Origin: a virus
Length of the DNA stretch: 29,471 nucleotides
Virus record (IMG/VR): IMGVR_UViG_3300025699_000377
Location: 1 to 29,471 of that record
Direction: 5' to 3' (one strand)
The notes under the pieces were generated by a model that did no database searches, was not told the DNA's origin, and saw only the letters and a program-made list of their open reading frames with translations. Numbering within the stretch: position 1 is the stretch's first letter; each line of letters opens with the position of its first letter. A program made the translations under genes and the position numbers. Below, piece by piece: positions 1-29,328 of the stretch.

Positions 1-308
1 CCTATAGTACCTTTGAGACCTTGAGAGCCTACAACGCCTTGATTACCTTGAACACCGGTAGCACCTATAGTACCTTGAGCACCTTGAGAGCCTACAACAC
101 CTTGATTACCTTGAACACCGGTAGCACCTATAGTACCTTGAGCACCTTGAGAGCCTACATCGCCTTGATTACCTTGAACACCGGTAGCACCTATAGTACC
201 TTGAGCACCTTGAGAGCCTACAACGCCTTGATTACCTGTGACACCCGTAGCACCTATAGTACCTTGAGCACCTTGAGAGCCTACATCGCCTTGAGAGCCT
301 ATAACACC
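1..308 (-). repeat. Collagen-like Gly-X-Y repeat tract in the J-like gene (63-bp unit)
   Basis: Read on the minus strand in the J frame, this stretch encodes at least 34 consecutive Gly-X-Y triplets. They are organised as a 21-residue (63-bp) unit, for example GNQGVVGSQGAQGTIGATG, repeated nearly identically about four and a half times. Variation is mostly limited to VV/DV and VQ/VT positions. The tract runs off the window edge, so total copy number is unknown. Such tracts form collagen triple helices in other phage fibres, so a trimeric rod at the end of the tip is likely. The plus-strand open frame here is only the antisense of the repeat. Confidence 0.95.
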
Positions 309-3300
309 TTCAACAGATTTACTAAATGTTTGCTCTTTTGTAAAATTAACCAGACCTTCCACATCTATTAAAAATTCTATGCTCGCCTCTAGGGGCACAT
401 CTGACATGCTTGATGCCGAATCTACAGTAGCAGTAGTACCCTCATGTGTAATAGTTCCCGCTACAATATTATTTACGGCATTAACAGTAACATTAAACTG
501 ACCTGAACCTGGAGTTCCTGATGTTGCCGATAAAATATTAGACCCTTTACTAACTTTAATAATAGTACCTGTATTGCTGTAAGAAGTTACAGGATACTCA
601 ATAGGACTAACGCTGGTGTTTCTGCCAGAAGATACACTAACCGCCTCATTAGTAAAGTTTACTACATAACCATCATCCCCTTTTGTTTGTACATAGATAT
701 CCGCTGAGTAAACACTACCCGACCTACTTATTTCCGCGAGAATAACGTCTTTTGATATGTCTGGCACAAAAGTTTGTTTAAAACCATAAACCCCGCTTTG
801 GGTACGTAGAAAAGGAAACTTTACTGTCATGCCGGTGTTGCTGAAAATTTCTACAATTTCTCTATATTCAGAAGAGGCTACTTCTGTACCAGCAGCAGAT
901 CCGGAAGAAACTTTAATAAAATCACCTACAGAGAAATCCGTTGTGAACGAAGTTCCTGAGCCTGTGATAATATCAGAGCCAAAGAATGTTTCAACTGTAC
1001 CAGAGATAGCAGTAAGCCCATTATTAGAAGCACCCAATTCTTTTACATAAGTAGTTCTAGTAATGTTGGAGCTAGGGTCTTCGGCTATATTATCAATATG
1101 TAGTTGAATTGCTTTCCAAGGATCTCCACCACTTTCAGCGGAAGAAGCATCATATAATAAATACGCAACTCCCCCATCTGCTAAAGAAATAAAACTCTGT
1201 TGATTAAATAAAGGACTACCAGCAGTAGAAAAGTAGTCGATACCTGAAGGAGGAGAATAGCTATAAATAGCATTTTCCAACACCACTAATGCAGTAGAGG
1301 AGTTGAAGGAAATCGGGGATGTAATAAATCCACCTTTTGATAGCCTGCTAAGCTTACTTACTTGAGGGGGAGCTGTAAATATAGTTCTAGTAACTGAAGT
1401 AGTGACAGAATTAGTAGAGGGTTCCGAGTCACTTTTCGTTATAATACCTACTGTATAAGTTCCCGCAGAAACGTTATCAATTTCTAGTACGTTACTCGAT
1501 GCAGGAACAAATACCCTAGCTGTATCGTCCGCATATATAGAATTATTAGTAGTAGTTAAATTATGTACTACCTCATACCCTTTTAAGAATCTGTAAGGTC
1601 TAGTACTTACTAACCCGTTTGAGTCTGTATAAGATTCTACGGCGGGAGTCCAACTAATTCTGGCTTTCGTAGCGGTACCCGAAGCTTCCTCTGAAGAAGA
1701 ACCATCAGTTACTAACTCTATAGAAATACTGGCTACAGCAGGAGGAGGGGAATTTCTTCCTGCTTCGGATACATAAGTAGTCGTATAAACAGGAGAGTCT
1801 ATATCTATCTCATCGAATTTCTCTCTAGTATACTGCGTGGCGGCGATAGAATACTTAAACCCGTCTTCTTCCGTGATACCAGCTATTCTAAATTCTCTAA
1901 TCTCCGGAGAGTTGACATCGTCTACTCTGCTAATAGCCCAAATAGTGTCTTGGGCGGGAGCAGTTGAAAAGGCTCCCAAAACAGAAATCGTAGAAGCAGA
2001 AGTGGTAGAATTAGTGATTTCTTTTACTTCTACCCTTGAATTTTTATTATACTGTACTAATACAGGATTGCCAGAGTCATCGAGTAAGTTTATTCCTTGT
2101 TCTTCAGATATTAATGGGTTCTCATCCTTATCCTCTAGAAGTACCTCTCCTCTGTTATACGTTTGTTCATTTATTACCGCAGACTCTTGCTGTAAGAAAA
2201 AGGAAGGCTCTGTAAAAATTAAGTATAAATTACACCCCGTCCCTAGAGTACCAGACCCAGGAAAATCTACGGTTCTATCCAATACTATAGAAGTAGTAGT
2301 AGACCCAGTGGATAATCTACCACTAGCTTCAAAGTCTACGGACTGCCTATCCTGTATATTTATAACGTCCCCTGGACGTAAAAATGAAGCATTCATAGAC
2401 GTTGTAAAACTAACAATTTCTGTTTCTGTAGTATCTGTTGCTAAGTGCCATGCAGCAAGTCTTCTTGCCTGCCCTTCTGAAGTACAACCAAAAGCTACTA
2501 CGTCTTTGGACACAATCCTACCCTGAGAAATCATGTTGGCAGTGTCATCTACAGTAATTGTTGTTTGAGCATAAAATTGATCAGGGTCTGTCCAAGTTGC
2601 ATTAACCTGATTAGTTCTTGCTCTTTGTCCCGTGTAGGAATAGTTAAACAATCCATCTTCTACGTTACCTTGAGTAAAAGTATACACAGGTTCTTTCGGT
2701 TTATCTTGAATAGCGGTTATTTTTCCGTCAATCCAAAACATCATAGATCTAAAAGTACTCGCAAGGTCTTTTAATACTTTGTAGCTTTCTTCTTGAGAAT
2801 TTAAATATACATTACAAGCAAATCGAGGTTCTAGTCCTCCTTTCCCGTCAGGAACTACTTCATCACAATATCTAGCAATTTGATACAAAGAGTAAATATC
2901 TATATCACTATCTTGAATAAAGTCTCCAAGACCATATTCTTTATTGGTAAGAATATCATAAAATACCCAAGCAGGATTATTAGTATAAACTAATTCTTGA
3001 CGGAACCCTCCTGTCCAAGGTTGATAGGCAGATTCTAATACCCCGGTACTAATGTTTCTAGTATATTCTGCTTGATAAGTACCGAGCTCTTCTCTAGTAA
3101 AATAGTTATTCGGAATTCTTATTTTCTTTCCGCGTAAATGGTATGCCCTGCTAGGAGGCTGCTCGAAATCCTCTGCTGCAAAACCTACAACTGCATAAGC
3201 ACTTCTCGGAAATGAAAATTTTTCTTCAATAATAGCCTCTACTAGTTTTAGTCTAGCAGAGGAGATAAAACTATTATTAGCGTAAGTATAATCTCTTACA

Positions 3301-18833: not shown

Positions 18834-20024
18834 TTACTCTTCCTTTTCTGCGGGTCTTCCGCCTTCTGCTGGGTTTGAAGCAGAGCCTGCAATATTGGCA
18901 GGCACGCGGATTTCTCCGGCGCCAAAGACCTCATCATAGTTTAAAGCTTCTCTTGCTTCGTTTGGTGTAATAATTCCTGCGTTTACGAGGGTTGAGTAGT
19001 AAGCTGCTGAATCTCGTAATTCTGGCTGAAGTGCGGGAATATTACTAATATCTGGAGTAACTGCAAACCCAAAGAATCTTTCTAGGGCTCTATTAATTTT
19101 TTCTACTATTGGGAGAACTGTCTCCAAATAATACATTCTGTGGTTCGGACGAATGTTTGCATTATTTCCTGAATCTAACATAATGGGTGGAACACCCAAT
19201 ACCTTCAAGATCTCTTTTTCTGATGACTCAATAGAGCTTTCAAAATCAAGTTCACGAAAGTTTATATTTGAAATTGCATCAAGTTCCATTCCGCCGTCTA
19301 AAACTAAAGGTCTTCTTCCACCTCCATCTGGACGATAACGAGTCATCCAGGATTGAATCATTCTTTCTTTATTCTTTTCACTAATAACAGAGGGAGATTT
19401 AATTACAAGACCAGGAACTGCACCATTCTTAAAGAAGTTATCTTGAAACTCTCTCATACGAGTAAGTTGGGACATACTTCTCTGTGCTGCTTTTAAACGG
19501 CTAGTGCCTCTGTAGATACTGTGAAAACTATTCTCTTTAATATGAATAATTTCTCGAGGATTATAGTCAACACTCGTCTGAAAAGTATAGCCCTGTACGT
19601 AGGTTTTCGTATCAGGTTCTATGTCAACATAGTGGGCAGGGAGATGATACAGGGAAACGCCGTCAAAGTATATAAAGATATTTCCATCTATAATATAATC
19701 GATTATGAGGTTTCGCTTAAACGTAGAAATATCTTGAAAAGGATTAGGTTCTTTGTTGAGCAATAAGTCAACGCGAGAACGTCTTATTCCTTTGGTAACC
19801 GAGTTCAATCCTTGAACTGGCTCTCCTATTCTAAGAGGAATTTCCGCTGCATCATCTACAATCATATTTACAGAGCGATTTACAACTTCTAAGTACTCAT
19901 AGTACGCTCTATAATTAGTAATAATCTCACGAGAAGCAATAGGGCCACCGCCTTCAAGACTATATACAATCTCTTCTTGCGCGGGATTTAACTTTTCCTG
20001 TTTCCAGAAATCATACCAAGCCAT
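18834..20024 (-). CDS. Portal protein, HK97 family
   Basis: A 396-residue protein between terminase/HNH and the protease-capsid gene. It forms the dodecameric ring through which DNA enters and leaves the head. Family features are visible: an N-terminal region with YRAYYEYLEVVNRSVNMIVDDAAEIPLR, the PNPFQDISTFKRNLIIDYIIDGNIFIY segment, the DIEPD strand, KENSFHSIYRGTSRLKAA, and a helical C-terminal part with GVPPIMLD. The C-terminus includes LVNAGIITPNEAREALNYD, a common portal ending. The ATG at 20024 overlaps the HNH gene by 14 bp and has only a weak GAG upstream, so translation is likely coupled. Confidence 0.95.
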   Translation of the reverse strand: MAWYDFWKQEKLNPAQEEIVYSLEGGGPIASREIITNYRAYYEYLEVVNRSVNMIVDDAAEIPLRIGEPVQGLNSVTKGIRRSRVDLLLNKEPNPFQDISTFKRNLIIDYIIDGNIFIYFDGVSLYHLPAHYVDIEPDTKTYVQGYTFQTSVDYNPREIIHIKENSFHSIYRGTSRLKAAQRSMSQLTRMREFQDNFFKNGAVPGLVIKSPSVISEKNKERMIQSWMTRYRPDGGGRRPLVLDGGMELDAISNINFRELDFESSIESSEKEILKVLGVPPIMLDSGNNANIRPNHRMYYLETVLPIVEKINRALERFFGFAVTPDISNIPALQPELRDSAAYYSTLVNAGIITPNEAREALNYDEVFGAGEIRVPANIAGSASNPAEGGRPAEKEE

Positions 20025-20394
20025 ATTTTTCTCGTTGTATTTCTACCCAGCGCTTCTGCTTTTCTGCGGTGTGAAGCGGGGGGTTTCTTCCGTAAATGGA
20101 ATGTAGTTTCAGATGATGATCGTGACATAGGGTGACTGTTTCAGTATAAAGTTCAGCCCAATTATCATCTATAAATTCGTCTCTCCAGATTATTAAATAC
20201 TCATCTGTGTAATGGTCTGGACGAAGCTTTTGCTTCTCACTTAACCATTTACGCAGTAAAGGAGCTAGAGTATGGAAATGGTGAAAGTCTAACTTTATCT
20301 TGACGCCGCATATCCGACATTCAGAACCCTTCTCGTATTTCGATTTTGCCCTATCTCTTATGTATTTTACTGGGTCTCTTTTTAATTCTACCAT
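20011..20394 (-). CDS. HNH-type endonuclease, probable packaging partner
   Basis: A 127-residue zinc-binding HNH-like nuclease. It has a CRIC zinc knuckle (C26, C29), then DFHHFH (H38, H39 as candidate catalytic or metal residues), and a second knuckle with histidines TLCHDHHLKLHSIYG (C90, H91, H93, H94, H98). In cos-type phages such as HK97, an HNH protein encoded beside the terminase is needed for DNA cleavage at packaging, and the position here between TerL and portal fits. A free-standing homing endonuclease is the alternative. The ATG at 20394 lies only about 6 nt from the predicted transcription start and has no Shine-Dalgarno. Confidence 0.8.
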   Translation of the reverse strand: MVELKRDPVKYIRDRAKSKYEKGSECRICGVKIKLDFHHFHTLAPLLRKWLSEKQKLRPDHYTDEYLIIWRDEFIDDNWAELYTETVTLCHDHHLKLHSIYGRNPPLHTAEKQKRWVEIQREKYGLV

Positions 20395-20406
20395 CTAATT
20401 TTAATC

Positions 20407-20435
20407 ATTATAGCCATGAGTCAGTTGAAAGTCAA
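20407..20435 (-). promoter_or_regulatory. Sigma70-type promoter for HNH-portal-head genes
   Basis: -35 TTGACT at 20435-20430, 17-bp spacer, -10 TATAAT at 20412-20407, minus strand, in the 61-bp gap after the large terminase gene. The AT-rich block TAAAAATAATTC precedes the -35. The predicted start, near 20400, leaves a leader of only about 6 nt before the HNH ATG. Confidence 0.85.
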
Positions 20436-20455
20436 GAATTATTTTTACTCGGTGT

Positions 20456-21736
20456 TTAGAATGTTGGAGCGTTCTCTTCAAAACTATAGAGTGCGTATCT
20501 CAACGCGTCTGCCATGTGAGAGGATGAATCATGAACGGGCTTCTCTCGAATCAAGTTGGGATTCGGGTCCCATCTATACATATCTAGTGAGCGCAATGTT
20601 TCGGTGCAGCTCGAGTCTACGATAAGACGATCGTTATCAATAAGACTTGCCACATGACCAATCCCGTCAACCACCGATTTCTTGGCGTTGATAGTAGAAA
20701 TATCATACTGCTGTGCAAGATCGAATCTTGTCTGTGCGGCGGCTGCATCGATAAAACAATAGTCGACCTCTCTTCTTTCAATAATTTCACCAAGGAAGCC
20801 AGCGTGTTCCTCTGTCGTGCGTTCTGCCGCATAATACTCTTCCATTAAATAATATTTGTGTCCGTCATATGCGATACAACAAAATGCTGTGGGGTCTTTA
20901 AAACCTACGTCAAGCCCCGAGATAATATCGCAGCCTGTAAAATCCATTTCTGATAAGTCTTGCACGCACGTATCATAGTTAAGTGTCCAAATCTGTCCTT
21001 CAAACACATTAAAGTCTGCTTCATATTCCTGAGCAAATTCTGCGGTTGACATAGAACGTCGTGCTTCCGCAATATCAGTTTCTGAAGCTCTTGGGTTATC
21101 ATGCCAAGTTGCCTTTATGCTTACCCACTCCTCAAAATCATCGGTGAACCCACGATTAAAAAAGCGACTAAACCAATTATTCCTTCCACGAGGAGTACTA
21201 ATAAAGAGAGCTTTAGATCCCGGCTTATCGAGTGTTGGCCTGATAGCAACATTAAACGCTGTCTCTCCATCTGCCAATGCGGCCTCATCAAAGAGAACAA
21301 AGTCATAGCTCCTCCCTACAACAGAATCAATCTGATTTACAGATCCTAGTCTAACAGTAGACCCGTTTGTTAATTCAATTACACGATCTTTCGCGTTATC
21401 TCGTGCTACTTCTAAATCAAAATGCTTTATTAAATTGCGTTGTAAATCGAAGGAGATATTAGAAAGATTGTAATTAGGACTGACAATAAGTACATGGCAT
21501 CCTGGAACGAGGGCGACGCATTGGGCAATAATATTTCCGATATACGTCTTCCCTTGACGACGACTAAGAGCACCAACAATGAAACGATACTTATCTGAAT
21601 TAATAGCATTTATTAAGGCCACCTGAGAAGGAATTGCCTCTATACCTAGCAATTCCAGATATTGTTCAATCGGTACTTTTAAAAACTTACCCGGTAATAT
21701 TTTGTCGAGAACTATGTCTCGTCTGCTGACTTCCAT
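20456..21736 (-). CDS. terL: Terminase large subunit
   Basis: A 426-residue DNA-packaging motor with both domains visible. ATPase: Walker A around residues 56-64 (ALSRRQGKT, Lys63), Walker B VLFDEAA at 147-153 (Asp150, Glu151) and coupling motif ISTPRG at 179-184. RNase H-like nuclease: acidic residues Asp276 (SGLDVGFKD), Asp330 (FIDAA) and Asp410 (HMADALRYA). It pumps DNA through the portal and cuts genome ends. The ATG at 21736 overlaps the preceding small gene by 25 bp and has only a weak purine run upstream, so coupling is likely. A promoter for the head genes follows its stop. Confidence 0.97.
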   Translation of the reverse strand: MEVSRRDIVLDKILPGKFLKVPIEQYLELLGIEAIPSQVALINAINSDKYRFIVGALSRRQGKTYIGNIIAQCVALVPGCHVLIVSPNYNLSNISFDLQRNLIKHFDLEVARDNAKDRVIELTNGSTVRLGSVNQIDSVVGRSYDFVLFDEAALADGETAFNVAIRPTLDKPGSKALFISTPRGRNNWFSRFFNRGFTDDFEEWVSIKATWHDNPRASETDIAEARRSMSTAEFAQEYEADFNVFEGQIWTLNYDTCVQDLSEMDFTGCDIISGLDVGFKDPTAFCCIAYDGHKYYLMEEYYAAERTTEEHAGFLGEIIERREVDYCFIDAAAAQTRFDLAQQYDISTINAKKSVVDGIGHVASLIDNDRLIVDSSCTETLRSLDMYRWDPNPNLIREKPVHDSSSHMADALRYALYSFEENAPTF

Positions 21737-21948
21737 TCTTCTTCACACTCGCAAGGGTCACATTCACATTCTTCACATACTAGAGAGGCTTTTCGTAGCT
21801 TCTCTAAAGGGCTCCAAGTAGTCTTCTCAACAGGAGCTTCTTTCATTACTGCTTGGTGAATTCCTGCAGCTTTTAGGGCTTCTTCTTCTGTAGCATATTT
21901 TGCTGATGAGCCAGCTACTTTCCACATATTGCCTTTTTTAAAAATCAT
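21712..21948 (-). CDS. Small Cys-rich protein of unknown function
   Basis: A 78-residue protein between the membrane-anchored small protein and TerL. The N-terminus (MIFKKGNMWKVAGSSAKYATEEEALKAAG) looks like a short alpha/beta domain. The C-terminus is strikingly acidic and Cys-rich: CEECECDPCECEEEW contains five cysteines in a C-x2-C-x-C-x2-C-x-C pattern that could bind zinc or another metal. The ATG overlaps the preceding stop as ATGA, and the 3' end overlaps terL by 25 bp, so it is made with the terminase. I do not recognise the family; a packaging accessory role is only a guess. Confidence 0.7.
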   Translation of the reverse strand: MIFKKGNMWKVAGSSAKYATEEEALKAAGIHQAVMKEAPVEKTTWSPLEKLRKASLVCEECECDPCECEEEWKSADET

Positions 21949-22178
21949 AGTACGTTTCCTGATGCCAATAATCCTGCTAAAAAGAGGATAAGGGCTCCGC
22001 CTACTGTCCAGACGAGTTTATGAAGTTTATCGATGGATTGCTGCATTTCTTTATATCGAATACGGCTATCTTCCGAAGCTTTCTTTACTTCATTAAATAT
22101 AGTTTTCCATCGTTCTTCACAGACTGCTTCGTGGGTACGAAAGTCTGTAAGAAGGTCATTCTGGTGCTGGGTTTCCAA
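21945..22178 (-). CDS. Small coiled-coil protein with a C-terminal membrane segment (XhlA-like architecture)
   Basis: A 77-residue protein encoded between the two terminase subunits. An N-terminal helical, charged region (coiled-coil-like, EERWKTIFNEVKKASEDSRIRYKEMQQSIDKLHKL) is followed by one hydrophobic segment, VWTVGGALILFLAGLLA, and a very short tail. This architecture resembles XhlA-type haemolysin or holin-accessory proteins, so a lysis or membrane role is possible, though the family is not certain. The start is TTG at 22178, supported by GGAG 7 nt upstream; it overlaps terS by 23 bp. No endolysin is visible nearby, which weakens the lysis idea. Confidence 0.7.
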   Translation of the reverse strand: METQHQNDLLTDFRTHEAVCEERWKTIFNEVKKASEDSRIRYKEMQQSIDKLHKLVWTVGGALILFLAGLLASGNVL

Positions 22179-22593
22179 GTAGTTTCTCCATTAACTTTCC
22201 ATAGTTACCTTCGCCGAATGGAGAATTGATTTGCACATTTTGCTGTTTAATATTTGTAGTAGCTTTTGCTTCTTTCGTATGGTCAACAGTTATTTTATGC
22301 GCGAGTGCAATTATATCAACGAGGTCTTTACTGGAATACTGCTCAGAGTCCCTAGCTTCTTGAAGTTTGTTTTCGATTACTTCATCAAGAAGCTCTGCGA
22401 GCCTGAAACGATTGCGATATCCTTGGTCCAAATAGACCGAATTGATGTAGTCTTTTACGTCACTTTTTTCTAGCACTTCGTAAACTTTGTCAGGAGTAAC
22501 GCCTAGGCTGCTTGCAGCCGTTAGCGCGGACCCCGTAGACAAATATGCATTTGCCACTTCGAGATTTTCTGGTGCCATCTTTACGAGTTTCAT
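22156..22593 (-). CDS. terS: Terminase small subunit
   Basis: A 145-residue DNA-recognition subunit of the packaging enzyme. The N-terminal part (PENLEVANAYLSTGSALTAASSLGVTPDKVYEVLEKSDVKDYI) looks like a helix-turn-helix DNA-binding domain. The middle is helical (ELLDEVIENKLQEA, oligomerisation) and the C-terminus has a short beta/loop segment. It is separated from terL by two small genes. The ATG at 22593 has no Shine-Dalgarno and coincides with the predicted transcription start of the promoter at 22628-22600, so the mRNA may be leaderless. An alternative start is Met6 at 22578, also without a Shine-Dalgarno. Confidence 0.83.
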   Translation of the reverse strand: MKLVKMAPENLEVANAYLSTGSALTAASSLGVTPDKVYEVLEKSDVKDYINSVYLDQGYRNRFRLAELLDEVIENKLQEARDSEQYSSKDLVDIIALAHKITVDHTKEAKATTNIKQQNVQINSPFGEGNYGKLMEKLLGNPAPE

Positions 22594-22599
22594 GGATTC

Positions 22600-22628
22600 A
22601 TTGTATTATGTTGAGACCGAAAAGTCAA
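22600..22628 (-). promoter_or_regulatory. Sigma70-type promoter for the terminase operon
   Basis: -35 TTGACT at 22628-22623, 17-bp spacer, -10 TACAAT at 22605-22600, minus strand. AAAAAAAGTTC lies upstream of the -35. Placing +1 seven nt after the -10 lands on the A of the terS ATG. Confidence 0.78.
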
Positions 22629-22637
22629 GAACTTTTT

Positions 22638-23111
22638 TTAAGAGGGTTCTGTTGGCCAGACAAAGTTTGTTGGAAGATCCAAATCTGAAGGAATTGTTAT
22701 ATCTCTCAAGGCTTGTCTATACGTAACCCACTCAGCTTTCTTCTCATCGGTAAGAGGAGAATCCGTTCCTTGAGTCCAGTCTGACTGATATAGTTTTGCA
22801 AGTCTCAACTCTAGAACACGTTTTGATACTCTATCACTGGCAATATCCCAAGATTCTGTTTCTGAATTCCATACAGTCCATTCAGGGTCGGAAGCTCCTC
22901 TATTTACCCAATCACCTTCCTTTCTAAAGTAGCAGTTTAGAAATTGAGAAGGATTTATGAAACCTATAGATTCTAGTTCATCTTCTCTTAAATAGATTAC
23001 TAATTCTCCGTTCCAAATAGACCCATTAGCTGGGGGTTCTGAAGGGAAAGACTGTACGTGGGAAATGACTCCCGTAGTTGGATGGGTATAAGCTATATAT
23101 GCGTAAATCAT
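22638..23111 (-). CDS. Tail fibre assembly chaperone-like protein
   Basis: A 157-residue protein following two fibre-type genes. Its C-terminal half matches the phage tail assembly chaperone pattern (Pfam Phage_tail_APC): the LRLAKLYQSDWTQGTDSPLTDEKKAEWVTYRQALRDI core and the PTNFVWPTEPS ending. The N-terminus (YIAYTHPTTGVISHVQSF) is beta-rich and specific to this group. It should help the upstream fibre proteins fold or trimerise. The ATG at 23111 is preferred over an in-frame upstream start at 23162, because it follows the preceding stop by one base and has AAAGGA nine nt upstream. It is the last gene before the terminase promoter. Confidence 0.78.
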   Translation of the reverse strand: MIYAYIAYTHPTTGVISHVQSFPSEPPANGSIWNGELVIYLREDELESIGFINPSQFLNCYFRKEGDWVNRGASDPEWTVWNSETESWDIASDRVSKRVLELRLAKLYQSDWTQGTDSPLTDEKKAEWVTYRQALRDITIPSDLDLPTNFVWPTEPS

Positions 23112-23112
23112 T

Positions 23113-23763
23113 TTAAGTTGTCCTTTGTAGTATAAATAAAGTGGAGATATTAGGGTAACCAAACCAAGTATAGGTGTTTGGGAAGGTAAAGGTAGTAGCC
23201 TGGTTTAGTCCCTGTATAGTATTAGCAGTATAATTCCAGTAAGTACCTTGAAAGATTATCACCCCATTTGTAAATTTCATATCGCCAAAGCCATACCAAA
23301 TATCTGTCAAACTTCCAGAATATAAAACTGGTTTAAATTGATAGTCATTTGGGTAACCGAAACTCTGTGTAGAGCCTGGGGGAATTATATCTATTAATTT
23401 TGGTCCTTTGCTATATCCTGAAGAGTACTGTAATGTTGTGCCGTCTGATTTAAAAACTTTTATTCCATAATCTGCAGAGTTATCCTCAGCTCTTTGAGAA
23501 GTTCTTTTTACTAATAGATATTCTACGGTAGCTCCGGAAGCATTTGTCCATCTATCTATACCTCCAGCCCCTCCTCCTTTCGAAGTATTACCATCTATGT
23601 GTCCTGTAGTAGTTCTTCGAACAAAGAGTATTTCATTCGCGGAATTATAATCTACAGCCGAGGTATTCGCTACTGTTCCAGTATCAATTACAGCTAAAGA
23701 TTCTTGGCCTGTGCTGAATTGTAAATTTCCATTTTCGTTGTAAACTTCTATTCCATATCCCAT
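23113..23763 (-). CDS. Fibre-associated or adhesin-like protein
   Basis: A 216-residue Gly/Ser/Thr/Asn-rich beta-type protein. It begins MGYGIEVYNENGNLQFSTGQESLAVIDTGTV, a start often seen in small phage proteins linked to the distal tail or fibres. Its opening closely resembles the last part of the preceding fibre (YGMQVFNAAGDLTLDTTYR), so the two share a domain and may be paralogous receptor-binding modules. The ATG is one base after the fibre stop, with GAGG 7 nt upstream. No signal peptide, membrane segment or enzyme motif is visible. A tail-tip or fibre-end role is inferred. Confidence 0.68.
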   Translation of the reverse strand: MGYGIEVYNENGNLQFSTGQESLAVIDTGTVANTSAVDYNSANEILFVRRTTTGHIDGNTSKGGGAGGIDRWTNASGATVEYLLVKRTSQRAEDNSADYGIKVFKSDGTTLQYSSGYSKGPKLIDIIPPGSTQSFGYPNDYQFKPVLYSGSLTDIWYGFGDMKFTNGVIIFQGTYWNYTANTIQGLNQATTFTFPNTYTWFGYPNISTLFILQRTT

Positions 23764-23764
23764 A

Positions 23765-25696
23765 TTAAAACCTCATCCCAATATAATCAAAATTTAAAGT
23801 GTAGTTTGACGTATCAGTTCTAAAAGTAACTGTAAATAAATTAGTGCCTCTATTTATAGTAAACTGGTTCGATGACCAAGCTCCTGCAGCAGGAATATTA
23901 TCTAAAATCCATACCTCGAACTCTGAAGAATTAGTAGGTGTCATTCCAGGAAAACTGATATCAGCGGAAGTTCCTGTATAGGTTGAGGGGGTACCCACGG
24001 CAGTTGTTCCTGAATTAACAGAAGTACTTCCAAAAGTAACAACCCCGGGAACTCTATAAGTTGTATCTAAAGTTAAATCCCCTGCAGCGTTAAACACTTG
24101 CATACCATAAATACTTGACCCAGCATTATAAGCGCCTAGAGTTTTTACTTCAGTATCATAGGCACCTGAAGTATCTTCATCTTGAGAAGCAAAATAATAT
24201 CTAGTAGTACTATAAGGTTGTGTAAAACTATTTGAAGTTTGCCAGCCGGTTGCGGGTGGTGTGGAAGTTGTATGTTGTATGTATTTAAGGGTACCGCCTG
24301 AACCATTAGCGGATAAGTTAACTGTAGCTGTAGCATCAGTTCCGTCAATATCTACTATACCAATAGAGGAGATAACGGGAGCTTGAATTCCTCCCGTACC
24401 CATCGTTATAGTGATAGTCTTACCAGTATCTATATAAGTATTACCACCACCATTAGCAGCACTCCGTTTTGCATACGCAGTATAAACTTCTTGAGTAGTG
24501 GGAACGTCAGTAACAGTTATATCACCATTACCATTTCTACTCTCGTGTTCAGTTCCTGAAGAGTCTCTTATTTGATACGTGTCTAATGAACTACCCCCAG
24601 AGACTGTTACAGTCCATTGAGTGGTTCCTACAGTCAAATTTAATGCAGTGGGATTTAAAGTAATACTGGTTACTGGGAGTGTTATTGTTCCTATACTCCA
24701 GCCGTTACCTCTTGCTGTTCCTTCAAATGCAGTATAAATGTGTGTACTGGTACCATAAGAGCTAGAAGAAGTCGCTCTTAGTCTTACAGTAGTTCCGTTA
24801 TTTACAACGGTAGCGGCAACAGCAGTCCAAGTGCCTCCATCAATCTGCATTTCAGGGGTATCATGTGAGTTACTAAAGAATGTCATACTAGCCGCAGCTT
24901 CCATTCCGGCTAATGTATGTATCTGTGAGTAGTATACGGTACTTATCTGTGCTCCTGGTTGGTCTACCCAGTTCCAATCATCTGGGACTTGATTGGGCGC
25001 TCTAGTTCCTATACTCCAGCCGTTACCTCTTGCTGTTCCTTCAAATGCAGTATAAATGTGTGTACTGGTACTATAAGAGCTAGAAGAAGTCGCTCTTAGT
25101 CTTATAGTAGTTCCGTTATTTACAACGGTAGAGGCAACAGCAGTCCAAGTGCCTCCATCAATCTGCATTTCAGGGGTATCATGTGAGTTACTAAAGAATG
25201 TCATACTAGCCGCAGTATCCATTCCAGTTAATGTATGTGTTTGTGATTCGTATAAGGTACTTATCTCTGCCCCTGGTTGGTCTACCCAGTTCCAATCATC
25301 CGGAATTTGATCGGTCACTGCTCCGATTGACATATAAAATACAGATGATATATTGCCAGGGTTAGCTCCCGAAGTATCTACGGCAGTTATACTATCGGTT
25401 TGGCCGCCAGCGGCGGATTGAATAGTTCTATACCCAGAAGTGGTATTTGCATTTACTACTAAGTTTGAACTACTATTCCAGTAGCCAACTTGCCACCCTT
25501 GTATTGTAGCTGACCCATTCCAAGTGGAATCGTCACCGTCACCGTCAGTAAAAATATTTTGTACTCTTACTCTATCTCCTACCTGAAGAACTAAAGGATC
25601 CCCAGAAGATAGCCCATCACCTCCTGACGCGGACCAAGTAATAGTGTCGAAAAATTTATCGTCACCAGTATTTATTACTAAAGTATAATCAGCCAT
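23765..25696 (-). CDS. Large tail fibre / adhesin with tandem duplicated domain
   Basis: A 643-residue, almost Lys-free, Thr/Ser/Gly/Asn-rich beta protein, probably a side or tip fibre. Domains in order: an N-terminal beta domain (residues 1-125); two near-identical copies of a 106-residue domain (about 128-337) marked by DDWNWVDQPGA, SHDTPEMQIDGGTWTA and EGTARGNGWSIGT; a bacterial Ig-like domain (ITLNPTALNLTVGTTQWTVTVSGG); then a C-terminal module with YGMQVFNAAGDLTLDTTYR also found in the next gene. No signal peptide, so it is a virion-type rather than a secreted bacterial adhesin. The ATG overlaps the upstream stop by 8 bp; the Shine-Dalgarno is weak, so translation is probably coupled. 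Confidence 0.8.
   Translation of the reverse strand: MADYTLVINTGDDKFFDTITWSASGGDGLSSGDPLVLQVGDRVRVQNIFTDGDGDDSTWNGSATIQGWQVGYWNSSSNLVVNANTTSGYRTIQSAAGGQTDSITAVDTSGANPGNISSVFYMSIGAVTDQIPDDWNWVDQPGAEISTLYESQTHTLTGMDTAASMTFFSNSHDTPEMQIDGGTWTAVASTVVNNGTTIRLRATSSSSYSTSTHIYTAFEGTARGNGWSIGTRAPNQVPDDWNWVDQPGAQISTVYYSQIHTLAGMEAAASMTFFSNSHDTPEMQIDGGTWTAVAATVVNNGTTVRLRATSSSSYGTSTHIYTAFEGTARGNGWSIGTITLPVTSITLNPTALNLTVGTTQWTVTVSGGSSLDTYQIRDSSGTEHESRNGNGDITVTDVPTTQEVYTAYAKRSAANGGGNTYIDTGKTITITMGTGGIQAPVISSIGIVDIDGTDATATVNLSANGSGGTLKYIQHTTSTPPATGWQTSNSFTQPYSTTRYYFASQDEDTSGAYDTEVKTLGAYNAGSSIYGMQVFNAAGDLTLDTTYRVPGVVTFGSTSVNSGTTAVGTPSTYTGTSADISFPGMTPTNSSEFEVWILDNIPAAGAWSSNQFTINRGTNLFTVTFRTDTSNYTLNFDYIGMRF
24684..25313 (-). 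repeat. Near-identical tandem duplication (318-bp period) in the fibre gene
   Basis: Two adjacent copies of about 310 bp, with equivalent points at 24687 and 25005, a 318-bp (106-codon) period. Long blocks are identical at DNA level with only scattered substitutions, many of them synonymous. That points to recent duplication or ongoing gene conversion rather than ancient domain repeats. Confidence 0.92.
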
Positions 25697-26282
25697 ATCG
25701 AACCATAGTAACGAAAATTGTTTCCTCCTCTCTAGAGAAGGTATTATTTTGTCTGCAATTATAAGAGGTAATAGAAAAACCTTCGTCTTTTATCATAAAA
25801 AGAGTTGCTTCCTCAAAAAAAGAGGTGTTACATTTTTTAGTTGTAAAAGATGTTCCTTTGGAGTAGTCATATCGAATAATATGATTTTTTGCTTCTTCTG
25901 TACTAGGTACTATACAAAAAGACTTAAAATCTGTGTCATAGTTACCTACTCTATTTTCAAGATTATGAGATATTGCCCAACCATCATCTCGAAGATTTAT
26001 AAAGCCCTCTTTGAAACAGTTAAGATCGATCCACTGACCATTTTTTAAGCCTTTAAAAGTCATGCTGCCAGAAATAGTTACTGTAAGCCAGTTACAGTAA
26101 CCAAAACCAGTAATCTCAGTTGATTTTTTATAACCATAATCTATAGCATCCTCCCTAGGGGAGGGGGGTACTACCTGGTGTTTTATGCCTTGAGTTTTAT
26201 CAAGTATAGTTTGGCCTGCCTTTACTTCGGACAAATATACCTTAAAACCAGCTACGTCATGTATTTGTGAAAAATTGTACAT
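25689..26282 (-). CDS. Unknown protein at the head of the fibre operon
   Basis: A 197-residue soluble protein of no family I recognise. It starts MYNFSQIHDVAGFKVYLSEV and has a beta-rich middle (NWLTVTISGSMTFKGLKNGQW), several aromatic residues and cysteines (YCNW, NCFKEG, KKCNTSFFEE, YNCRQN), and no signal peptide. The start at 26282 is firm: AGGAG lies 8 nt upstream. The in-frame upstream codon at 26303 would fall before the predicted transcription start (about 26300). It is the first gene of the operon that encodes the fibre, the adhesin-like protein and the fibre chaperone, so a structural or fibre-modifying role is likely but unproven. Confidence 0.75.
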   Translation of the reverse strand: MYNFSQIHDVAGFKVYLSEVKAGQTILDKTQGIKHQVVPPSPREDAIDYGYKKSTEITGFGYCNWLTVTISGSMTFKGLKNGQWIDLNCFKEGFINLRDDGWAISHNLENRVGNYDTDFKSFCIVPSTEEAKNHIIRYDYSKGTSFTTKKCNTSFFEEATLFMIKDEGFSITSYNCRQNNTFSREEETIFVTMVRYG

Positions 26283-26306
26283 TAACAATGCTCCTTTTAA
26301 CAACCA

Positions 26307-26335
26307 ATTATACTTCTAGAGAACAAAAATGTCAA
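26307..26335 (-). promoter_or_regulatory. Perfect-consensus sigma70-type promoter for the fibre operon
   Basis: -35 TTGACA at 26335-26330, 17-bp spacer, -10 TATAAT at 26312-26307, minus strand: both hexamers are the consensus. An A-rich block (GAAAAAAATATC) lies upstream. The predicted start, near 26300, leaves an 18-nt leader containing AAGGAG for the gene at 26282. Confidence 0.9.
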
Positions 26336-26345
26336 GATATTTTTT

Positions 26346-26669
26346 TCAGAAGGTATAGCGAACTTCAGTTTCAACCTTAGTCTTGGCAGAGCCAGTGTCT
26401 TTAGTCTCTAGTTTTCCTTTGATGGTTACATCATCGAATTTGAACTTGTATCCGGCTTCATAACTATGGCCCTTCGTCATGGGCCCAATTTCAAAATAAA
26501 AATTATTCTTTGCCTTATACCCGAGACGTAAGTGATTAGTAGTCTTTTCTTTCTTCATCTCATTCTTGTATTCAACATAAGGTGCAGCTTTAATATCTAA
26601 ACTTAAAAACATAAACACCGATCCTATAAATACGAGGGCCACGAGTGTTTCTTTCCAATTCTTCTTCAT
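26346..26669 (-). CDS. Small secreted outer-membrane beta-barrel-like protein
   Basis: A 107-residue protein with a clear signal peptide (positive MKKNWKE, hydrophobic LVALVFIGSVFMFLSL, cleavage probably after DIKAA). The mature part alternates polar and hydrophobic residues in about six strands (VEYKNEM, NHLRLGYKAK, FYFEIGPM, YEAGYKFKF, VTIKGKLE, TEVRYTF) and ends in Phe, the signature recognised by the outer-membrane assembly machinery. A small outer-membrane barrel or surface protein is the best reading. The ATG has GGAG seven nt upstream. It has its own possible promoter and an unusual palindrome, and sits beside the TonB-dependent receptor gene. Function unknown; a change in host surface is a guess. 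Confidence 0.78.
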   Translation of the reverse strand: MKKNWKETLVALVFIGSVFMFLSLDIKAAPYVEYKNEMKKEKTTNHLRLGYKAKNNFYFEIGPMTKGHSYEAGYKFKFDDVTIKGKLETKDTGSAKTKVETEVRYTF

Positions 26670-26688
26670 GTTATATCTCCAGAGGCTT

Positions 26689-26717
26689 TGTGAACTTTTT
26701 TCACAGGGGATATTATA
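26689..26717 (-). promoter_or_regulatory. Putative promoter (-10 only strong) with palindrome at +1 for the small outer-membrane gene
   Basis: TATAAT at 26717-26712 on the minus strand, with no good -35 at 17 bp. Seven nt downstream, at the predicted start, lies a perfect palindrome TGTGAA-AAAAG-TTCACA (26705-26689). A dyad at +1 is a classic operator position. It resembles a CRP site but has a 7-base instead of 6-base centre, so CRP is not assigned. Confidence 0.5.
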
Positions 26718-26754
26718 ACATAGTTTTGTTAAGGTTTTATAAAGATTTGTTTAA

Positions 26755-26782
26755 GAATTAAAAAAGGGGCCGAAGCCCCTTT
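26755..26782 (-). terminator. Intrinsic terminator of the TonB-dependent receptor gene
   Basis: Minus strand: AAAGGGGC-TTCG-GCCCCTTT followed by TTTAATT, an 8-bp stem with UUCG loop and U tract, starting 4 nt after the receptor stop codon. A textbook rho-independent terminator. Confidence 0.93.
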
Positions 26783-26786
26783 GTCA

Positions 26787-29189
26787 TTAGAAACGATAGG
26801 ATAGTTTCGCTTGATAATGTCGCGGCAGTTCGGGGAGAACAACCGTAGTACCAAATAGATCTGGAAAGTTTGCTCGGAAGTAACGCTCATCTGTAACGTT
26901 CTTCGCTGCAACAATGACAGACCAGTCTTCGGCGTCATAGCTCATGCTAAGATTGACTAGTGTATATGCGGGAAGAGTAACTGCGAAAGACTGACCGGAT
27001 GCAACCGCGTCTACATCAACTACGCTACCGCTGACAGCAAAGCCATCACCAAAGTCGTAGGTGCCTGTCACAGACATGATGGTTTCGGGCATACCGGCTC
27101 GAACGCCTTTCGAAGGACCAACATCAATCAAACCACCAACTTGACCGCCCCATAACAGAGTTGGGTCGATTAAAGGCAAATCCGCTTGACCTAGAAACGA
27201 GAACTCATTCCCAGCCGCAATGGTTGCTAACATCAGTGCTTGCATGTTGCTATAGCCCATCGTCATCAAGAACTTGTCCGTTACAGCCCAACGCAACTCA
27301 AACTCTGTACCATCTGTTTTCACAGCCTGGTTTACAGTGATTGACTGTGCATTGAAGTCTGTGCGCTCCATTTCATAAGAAGACACTGCGAAGTAGAGAC
27401 GATCGTCTAGAAGACTTCCTTTCACACCATATTCCATCAACTCTGACGAGCCAAAGGCATTGCCAGTAAATACGTTACCGACTTGTACTTCCGCTCCCTG
27501 ACCCGCAATGACAGTGCTCTGCTCTGACATTGTTACATAAGGTACGAGACCGATTGGAGTTGCCCAGCTTAGCGAACCTGACCACGATACACCACTAGGC
27601 TCATCTGAAGCAGTATTTACCACAACGTCCACTCCACCTTCGGAAGATGTAAATGCTGAATCTGATTGTGTGAAGCCTTCAGGAGTTGTACTTGTCATAT
27701 CAATTACGTCATAACGTGCACCTAGAAGAAGAGACAGTCCCGAAGCATGTGCAAAGTCTACCATTACCCCGAAACCCAGGTCAGTATAATCCCCAACATA
27801 ATATTCGCTATAGTCGCTACCACTTCGAGTTGCCAGTAGTCTTCTATCAAGAGCCGTTGAAGGCCCCGTCAGGTCACGTCGGCTAAAGTATTCGTTATAG
27901 TAGTCATCACCGTGAGTAAACTCAGTTCGTCGAATTGAAGGAGAAATCTGTACTGAAGTCGTCATAGAGGACCCATCAAACACACCCGACAGAATCAACT
28001 GATCCTCTACAACCGATGCGTCATGAAACTGAGAAAACCCGTAAGCGTTCTCATTCAGGTTCTCATAGCTTTCGTAGAATAACTTATTCGTCAAAGTCCA
28101 CTCGCCAAGAGCAACATCAACATCGAAGTACAGAGTCGCCACTTTATTCTCTAAGGTGTCATCCGCAGCGATAAGTGTTGAAGACATGGGCAGAATTGCA
28201 GTTCCAACGTTCTCTAAGGCCATATTCGAAGAAGTGTAGTCATAACCGAAAGAAGCATCGGAGAGACCGGCGAGATCAAGATTCTGCTGCCCGAAGAAGG
28301 CATAGAGAGCAAAAGGATTGATATTGCCTGCATAGTACTCATCGTGAGAGATGAAGCCGTCTCCAGATGTATCGAGAGGAGTAGGAGTACCGGTGATATA
28401 AACCCCGTTGTCAATAAGGTCTTGAGTCAAACGGTTCCAGCCAGCGTTTTGGCTACCCTGATAGTCGTGAAGCATACCACCGAACTGAAGTCGAACATTG
28501 TCGCTAAAGTCCATATCGAACGATGCTTGAACGAGTGATTGATTCACACCGGGGGCATTTGTGTAGAAGCTGCCCGAATGTTCAACTTCTCCATAGAGGT
28601 AGTAGCCAACAGGCTTTCCACTGATTGCTGCAGGGCCACCGACTTCGGCAGTGAGAACATTACGATCCCAGCTTCCACCAGAGTAGGAAATCTCTCCGAT
28701 GCGCGCGGGAATATAAGAACCTGTCTCTTCGATACGGGCGGACTTGGGATTGAAGTTGAGGTAACCACCAATCTTACTAGGACCCATGATAGGTGACGCG
28801 GGACCGCGAACGATGTCTACTCGGTCAGAGGCTCCAATCGGGGTAGGATAGTTGCCGGGGTTATCGAGGCGTCGAATACCTCGAAAGTATGTCTCACCCG
28901 CAGTACCACGTACATCGAGTGAGCCTGCTACACCGAAGAACGATTGTGTGAAGGTTCCAGGTGCTAGAACAACGAGTTCGTCGATATCCTGCATATTGAA
29001 ACGGTCCATCATTTCTTCGGAGATTGTAGAAGCGCTTCGGGGTGTATCTAGAATAGACTTCTCGAAGCCGAAGACGGATTCTACGCGTTCGCCGGGAAGT
29101 GACCCGAGATCTCCTTTGACGACGATTTCTTCCATCTCGGCGAATGATGAACAACTTAGTAGCAATAGCGGGATTGCCTTTCTTAACAT
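26787..29189 (-). CDS. TonB-dependent outer-membrane receptor (siderophore-receptor type)
   Basis: An 800-residue energy-coupled outer-membrane transporter, the usual size for the family. Signal peptide at about residues 1-17 (MLRKAIPLLLLSCSSFA), then a TonB-box-like EEIVVKG (20-26). The plug domain is complete: DTPRSASTISEEMMDRFN, the DIDELVVLAPGTF motif, DVRGTAGETYFRGI and DRVDIVRGPASPIMGPSKIGGYLNF. The barrel follows and ends LSYRF, with the terminal Phe used for outer-membrane assembly. Ferric-siderophore receptors are the closest pattern, but the substrate is not readable. Residues 273-284 (DTSGDGFISHDE) fit the EF-hand calcium loop. AGGAG precedes the ATG. Own consensus promoter and terminator flank it, and its base composition is more GC-rich than the tail genes, so it looks like an acquired moron gene. 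Confidence 0.97.
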   Translation of the reverse strand: MLRKAIPLLLLSCSSFAEMEEIVVKGDLGSLPGERVESVFGFEKSILDTPRSASTISEEMMDRFNMQDIDELVVLAPGTFTQSFFGVAGSLDVRGTAGETYFRGIRRLDNPGNYPTPIGASDRVDIVRGPASPIMGPSKIGGYLNFNPKSARIEETGSYIPARIGEISYSGGSWDRNVLTAEVGGPAAISGKPVGYYLYGEVEHSGSFYTNAPGVNQSLVQASFDMDFSDNVRLQFGGMLHDYQGSQNAGWNRLTQDLIDNGVYITGTPTPLDTSGDGFISHDEYYAGNINPFALYAFFGQQNLDLAGLSDASFGYDYTSSNMALENVGTAILPMSSTLIAADDTLENKVATLYFDVDVALGEWTLTNKLFYESYENLNENAYGFSQFHDASVVEDQLILSGVFDGSSMTTSVQISPSIRRTEFTHGDDYYNEYFSRRDLTGPSTALDRRLLATRSGSDYSEYYVGDYTDLGFGVMVDFAHASGLSLLLGARYDVIDMTSTTPEGFTQSDSAFTSSEGGVDVVVNTASDEPSGVSWSGSLSWATPIGLVPYVTMSEQSTVIAGQGAEVQVGNVFTGNAFGSSELMEYGVKGSLLDDRLYFAVSSYEMERTDFNAQSITVNQAVKTDGTEFELRWAVTDKFLMTMGYSNMQALMLATIAAGNEFSFLGQADLPLIDPTLLWGGQVGGLIDVGPSKGVRAGMPETIMSVTGTYDFGDGFAVSGSVVDVDAVASGQSFAVTLPAYTLVNLSMSYDAEDWSVIVAAKNVTDERYFRANFPDLFGTTVVLPELPRHYQAKLSYRF

Positions 29190-29299
29190 AGTAACTCCTT
29201 TAATTTTCTTTTGTGGGTTTATGTATGATTTATTTAGTAAAATTTAATGCTTGAAATTTTATTTGGATTTGAAAAAATTCATCTTTTCTCAAGAATGTT
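29190..29299 (-). promoter_or_regulatory. AT-rich leader of the receptor gene
   Basis: From the predicted transcription start near 29293 to the ATG the mRNA has a leader of about 104 nt, very AT-rich, ending with AAAGGAG. No riboswitch, Fur box or strong hairpin is seen. The 11-mer TTGAAAAAATT occurs (plus strand) at 29269-29279 and again at 29307-29317 in the promoter spacer. Confidence 0.5.
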
Positions 29300-29328
29300 A
29301 TTATAATTGAAAAAATTAAAAATGTCAA
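29300..29328 (-). promoter_or_regulatory. Perfect-consensus sigma70-type promoter for the TonB-dependent receptor
   Basis: -35 TTGACA at 29328-29323, 17-bp AT-rich spacer, -10 TATAAT at 29305-29300, minus strand. Both hexamers are the consensus with optimal spacing, and TAAAAATACTTC lies directly upstream of the -35. Confidence 0.92.

Follow-up and report, generated by a model that had tools for sequence, protein, structure and literature searches.

The window analyzed here is the whole 29,471-base IMG/VR record of a marine bacterial virus. Its minus strand carries a siphovirus-like structural region with terminase, HNH, portal, protease-capsid protein, tail genes, and fibres, and at the right-hand edge of the contig lies the gene of a TonB-dependent receptor (TBDR). 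Because the terminase genes (20456..22593) are located on the same contig, the receptor sits on a phage genome. The locus consists of the following features:

29300..29328, minus strand: sigma70-type promoter TTGACA-17-TATAAT ahead of the receptor (perfect 12/12 match; conserved in 6/6 relatives)
26787..29189, minus strand: TBDR, intact, 800 residues, purine-cluster family (open reading frame, domain and family alignment)
29139..29189, minus strand: signal peptide, residues 1-17 (by eye and family alignment)
29109..29132, minus strand: TonB box-like segment EEIVVKGD, residues 20-27 (alignment)
28764..29051, minus strand: plug domain PF07715 (profile match)
26763..26782, minus strand: intrinsic terminator behind the receptor (hairpin; conserved in 12/12 relatives)
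26346..26669, minus strand: exported small β-rich protein of 107 residues with an outer-membrane-type C terminus (ETEVRYTF), adjoining the receptor in 12/13 related contigs
26307..26335, minus strand: second perfect TTGACA-17-TATAAT promoter, ahead of the fibre operon (sequence match)
22638..26303, minus strand: fibre and fibre-assembly genes, downstream of the receptor, variable among relatives (profile and contig comparison)
22156-22593, minus strand: terminase small subunit (profile match)
20456-21736, minus strand: terminase large subunit (profile match)

The initial annotation had placed the receptor on one contig with fibre and terminase genes, which holds, and directly beside the fibre genes, which does not, since the gene of the 107-residue protein intervenes. 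This small protein shows six β-strands in a weak structure model, and the order of its gene and the receptor gene is swapped in two relatives (L005 and L006). Just upstream of it, a perfect, operator-like palindrome TGTGAA-N5-TTCACA is found at window positions 26689-26705 (0.07 copies expected with one mismatch allowed).

An intact 800-residue receptor with signal peptide, TonB box, plug, and barrel had been annotated, and this architecture is confirmed by the open reading frame, the PF07715 match, and a weak structure model. Together with the long outer loops of the modeled 22-strand barrel and an aromatic C-terminal residue, these are the features of a TBDR. The N terminus, MLRKAIPLLLLSCSSFA, resembles a signal peptide as judged by eye, and the C terminus ends in ...LSYRF. 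The segment EEIVVKGD is kept in both phage and bacterial members of a 15-member family alignment. The plug match is above the cut-off (E value of 4e-11); the receptor gave no match to the general barrel model PF00593, which is usual for TBDRs and was not treated as defining, and two other TBDR families found in related phages do match it. The AlphaFold prediction is of low confidence (mean pLDDT of 51, 15 sequences) and served only to count strands, place the loops, and recognize the type of fold; it contains 22 barrel strands connected by loops that alternate between long and short. Its top fold matches in the PDB are all TBDRs, the best one with an E value of 1.7e-20.

The perfect promoter and the intrinsic terminator reported to flank the receptor are indeed present, and both are conserved across relatives. 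Perfect copies of the promoter occur twice in the window, as compared with 0.03 expected. Ahead of the receptor, the match is 12/12 in all six related phage contigs that have upstream sequence; it is kept despite a DNA divergence of up to 23% between the receptor genes and despite a variable spacing from promoter to start codon. In the bacterial homologues, the match amounts to 8/12 at most, and the copies of a second phage lineage (lineage B) likewise reach only 8/12. With its own promoter and terminator and a patchy presence among relatives, the gene of the first lineage (lineage A) forms the autonomous, moron-like cassette that had been proposed.

The head genes are related to those of T5-like phages (49% for the terminase large subunit and 41% for the portal protein). 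The tail-tip protein encoded at window positions 3-500, on the minus strand, terminates in collagen-like glycine repeats, which continue beyond the contig end. A polyphosphate kinase 2 (PPK2, by Pfam) is present in each of the five contigs of lineage A extending into the early region (L006 2733-3353 and L010 6810-7463 are two such positions), and homologues of ThyX, MazG, and IscU were recognized in lineage A early-region contigs by sequence inspection.

Relatives, selection, and origin of the receptor gene

Relatives of the receptor are carried by 26 viral contigs, and 13 of these also hold the terminase small subunit. The relatives do not show an arrangement confined to bacterial chromosomes with a decayed prophage alongside. 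A prophage adjoining a host gene was likewise rejected on the grounds of the conserved phage slot and because no integrase was noticed in the lineage A early-region contigs inspected. Among isolate phages, the receptor lacks close relatives and is the rare cargo it had been taken for: 3 of 50,697 records match it at E<1e-5, all of them weakly, and 14 records match another type of phage TBDR (L129-type, see below). These matches mostly cover a fraction of the receptor or lie in short or doubtful records.

Trees place the phage copies of lineage A in one well-supported clade nested within homologues from Pseudomonadales metagenome-assembled genomes (MAGs). In lineage A, pS reaches up to 0.70 and dN/dS is 0.045-0.095 where computable; in lineage B, dN/dS is 0.035-0.053 where computable. 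No broken receptor copies occur among those compared. The receptor is an old phage gene under strong purifying selection. Being host-derived according to the trees and kept under selection in the virus according to dN/dS, it fits, in these respects, the definition of an auxiliary metabolic gene (AMG).

The receptor of lineage B (L011 and others) is about 60% identical and is located directly behind the α and β subunits of ribonucleotide reductase (RNR, by PHROGs) in all 14 contigs that extend upstream. Without a strong promoter of their own, these copies seem to belong to the RNR operon. The test of a single phage origin for both lineages leads to its rejection (AU p = 6e-50; some bacterial branches are long, which calls for caution), and lineages A and B acquired the receptor independently. 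One lineage B phage contig, L042 (PAAM01000024.1), is filed as a Rhodobiaceae MAG, which represents a binning error.

The nearest bacterial homologues are found in Pseudomonadales MAGs (L028-L040 and others) with 83-88% protein identity. In MAG L028, the homologue (87% identity) is flanked by an exported adenosine deaminase and a NUP purine nucleoside permease. The same cluster comprises an OHCU decarboxylase, an amidohydrolase resembling guanine deaminase, urate oxidase, a phosphoribosyltransferase, two xanthine/uracil-type permeases, and a second adenosine deaminase, all assigned by Pfam; in our own reading of the sequences, it holds candidates for allantoinase PuuE, allantoicase, ureidoglycolate lyase, and guanine deaminase. 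Homologues of these purine-cluster genes lie beside 16 of 18 bacterial receptor loci, as opposed to 1 of 20 control TBDR loci of the same four MAGs (Fisher, 1.5e-7, a value that overstates independence because the bacterial loci are mutually related). Five further, divergent homologues, obtained by a search without short patterns, have purine genes at four loci with changed order and strand; the purine association, thus, survives rearrangement of gene order. Overall, the purine cluster surrounds 20 of the 23 bacterial loci. At L041, the homologue instead adjoins an inosine-uridine nucleoside hydrolase, and purine genes are absent from L046 and L321 (2 of 23). The ancestor of the phage receptor is, accordingly, a Pseudomonadales TBDR residing in clusters for purine uptake and catabolism.

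A candidate role in purine import

The receptor gene is probably an auxiliary gene of host origin by which TonB-driven import of purines would be increased to supply viral nucleotides, a reading to which we attach moderate confidence. After infection, it would be exported and inserted into the outer membrane, where the host TonB-ExbBD system would energize it through the conserved TonB box. Purine compounds (bases, nucleosides, or nucleotides) would be taken into the periplasm, and the host would then pass them on, through its purine permeases in the inner membrane and its salvage enzymes, to viral dNTP synthesis. The phage location of the gene, its selection, its origin, and its neighborhoods are given by the data; from these we infer the transport and the benefit to the phage, and from the gene neighborhood the purine substrate. 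That the phage changes the nutrient uptake of its host, as initially suggested, is probable.

The divergence between phage and bacterium is 2.8% in the plug, 9.4% in the extracellular loops, 13.5% in the strands, and 38% in the short periplasmic turns, with the loops assigned from the weak structure model (pLDDT of 51). The same order, from the plug to the periplasmic turns, is found within both phage clades. The conservation of plug and modeled loops, together with the kept TonB box, fits conserved ligand binding and TonB-driven transport. The presence of PPK2 and of ThyX- and MazG-like genes in the same phages counts for nucleotide supply as well, and so does the position of the lineage B receptor behind RNR; characterized PPK2 members phosphorylate purine nucleotides. 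Against the purine reading stand the location of the lineage A receptor beside host-recognition genes, the two bacterial loci devoid of purine genes, the empty slot of most lineage B relatives, and the other TBDR families or TorF-type porin of related phages, which show no purine link in their bacterial context. For the two other phage families, this context is uninformative, with best relatives at 33-43% identity.

These families occupy the same slots. L129, a relative of lineage A, contains another TBDR family in place of the receptor, and so do L285 and L288, with the same neighbors on the PPK2 side. Among the relatives of lineage B, a third TBDR family is found in L214, L280, and L282, and a TorF-type porin in L200, L215, L219, and L244, whereas both are missing from most RNR relatives. 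In L006, the purine-family receptor occurs together with a TorF-type porin. The positions are as follows:

L129 181-2325; L284 5989-8208; L285 5950-8142: L129-type TBDR family
L214 7109-9379; L280 6001-8271; L282 6001-8271: third TBDR family
L006 8620-9192; L200 7124-7708; also L215, L219, and L244: TorF-type putative porin (TIGR02001), in both phage lineages

With such varied outer-membrane proteins in the slot, either the proteins serve several nutrients or selection acts on the outer-membrane location; hence our confidence in purine import is kept moderate. As a broader and more tentative proposal, several phage lineages may time and again take up outer-membrane uptake proteins that can replace one another (at least three TBDR families and the TorF-type porin) and keep them in fixed slots, so that infected cells would actively import scarce building blocks, e.g., purines, for viral genome synthesis. 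Nutrient import across the outer membrane would then be directed by the virus and energized by TonB.

Work that makes no mention of TonB has established purine exchange in the ocean for Prochlorococcus, SAR11, and SAR116 (PMC11698098). Nothing in point on purine TBDRs was found among the open-access papers searched. If true, purine import by the receptor would link phage infection with the dissolved purines exchanged among ocean microbes (PMC11698098). The receptor is also a candidate for the transport of purine compounds across the outer membrane, and it opens to direct testing whether phages draw nutrients from outside the cell.

Alternative explanations

A surface-remodeling or superinfection factor would displace, mask, or compete with the receptor of rival or sister phages, or offer binding sites on debris. 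This would agree with a slot shared with other TBDR families, the TorF-type porin, and small β-rich exported proteins, with the adjoining fibre region, and with the T5-like head genes, TBDRs being the known receptors of T5-like phages. However, plug and loops are conserved, and the loops differ less from the host homologues than the strands do, a relation that receptor-swap selection should reverse; as far as the loops are placed by the model, this argues against a role in an arms race or a receptor swap. In addition, the TonB box is kept, and the lineage B gene sits behind RNR. We consider a surface function unlikely, and the conserved extracellular loops disfavor the earlier idea that a host receptor is replaced to block rival phages.

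Import of another nutrient, such as an iron-siderophore, haem, cobalamin, or a non-purine metabolite, is less probable still. The structural comparison suggested at the outset did return siderophore receptors as the closest solved folds, which is true of nearly any TBDR, and sub-threshold matches to haem and siderophore models exist. No NCBIfam siderophore or haem model, however, is matched at its cut-off, and the bacterial homologues lie in purine, not iron, clusters. A siderophore receptor was, thus, rejected on the cut-offs of TIGR01783 and the NCBIfam siderophore models and on the purine neighborhood, and the role in siderophore or iron uptake that had been considered finds no support.

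A transient passenger, i.e., a host gene caught by recombination without a selected phage function, could explain the patchy presence among relatives and is very improbable in view of the monophyletic phage clade, the high synonymous divergence with a dN/dS of about 0.05-0.1, and the conserved promoter and terminator; the absence of broken copies among those seen largely contradicts it. An assembly chimera of phage and bacterial DNA, to which the position at the contig end and the higher GC content (0.48 versus 0.40) could have pointed, is excluded because L002 is 99.9% identical to the window over 19965-29135 (9.2 kb), and 13 other assemblies have the receptor on one contig with terminase genes.

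Comparison with known systems

The receptor is of the auxiliary-gene or moron kind and not a new category. No report of a phage-borne TBDR was found in searches of open-access papers on phage-borne TBDRs and AMGs, a scope that makes this weak evidence of novelty. For phages of Lentisphaerae strains, ExbB, the energizer of the TonB system, has been reported as a possible AMG (PMC11361711); both are TonB-system phage genes, whereas ExbB is the energizer in a polysaccharide context and the gene described here encodes the receptor. Compared with the TBDRs of the Pseudomonadales MAGs, the phage receptor is alike in plug, loops, and TonB box. The bacterial copies, however, reside in purine clusters without a perfect promoter, and the phage copies in their own cassette or behind RNR.

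T5 Llp is a lipoprotein that blocks a host TBDR (FhuA), and structure 8a60, which is among the fold matches of the receptor, presumably represents this system. The common point is that T5-like phages engage TBDRs, whereas here the TBDR itself is phage-encoded. The Lc porin of the lambdoid phage PA-2, which is cited as a precedent for surface remodeling, and lambda Lom are phage-borne outer-membrane proteins and resemble the receptor in being phage-encoded β-barrels. They are, however, smaller, a passive porin or an Ail-type barrel, and have neither a TonB box nor a metabolic neighborhood.

To our knowledge, the known viral auxiliary genes act on intracellular metabolism or on uptake at the inner membrane or in the periplasm. 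Cyanophage PstS and the ammonium transporter of an Ostreococcus virus are reportedly such virus-borne nutrient-uptake genes. They have in common with the receptor that a host-derived uptake protein is encoded in a virus, where it probably feeds viral synthesis. However, they act at the periplasm or plasma membrane, whereas the receptor would be a TonB-energized outer-membrane transporter with a putative purine substrate. If true, this vertically inherited phage TBDR would extend auxiliary genes to the energized outer-membrane step.
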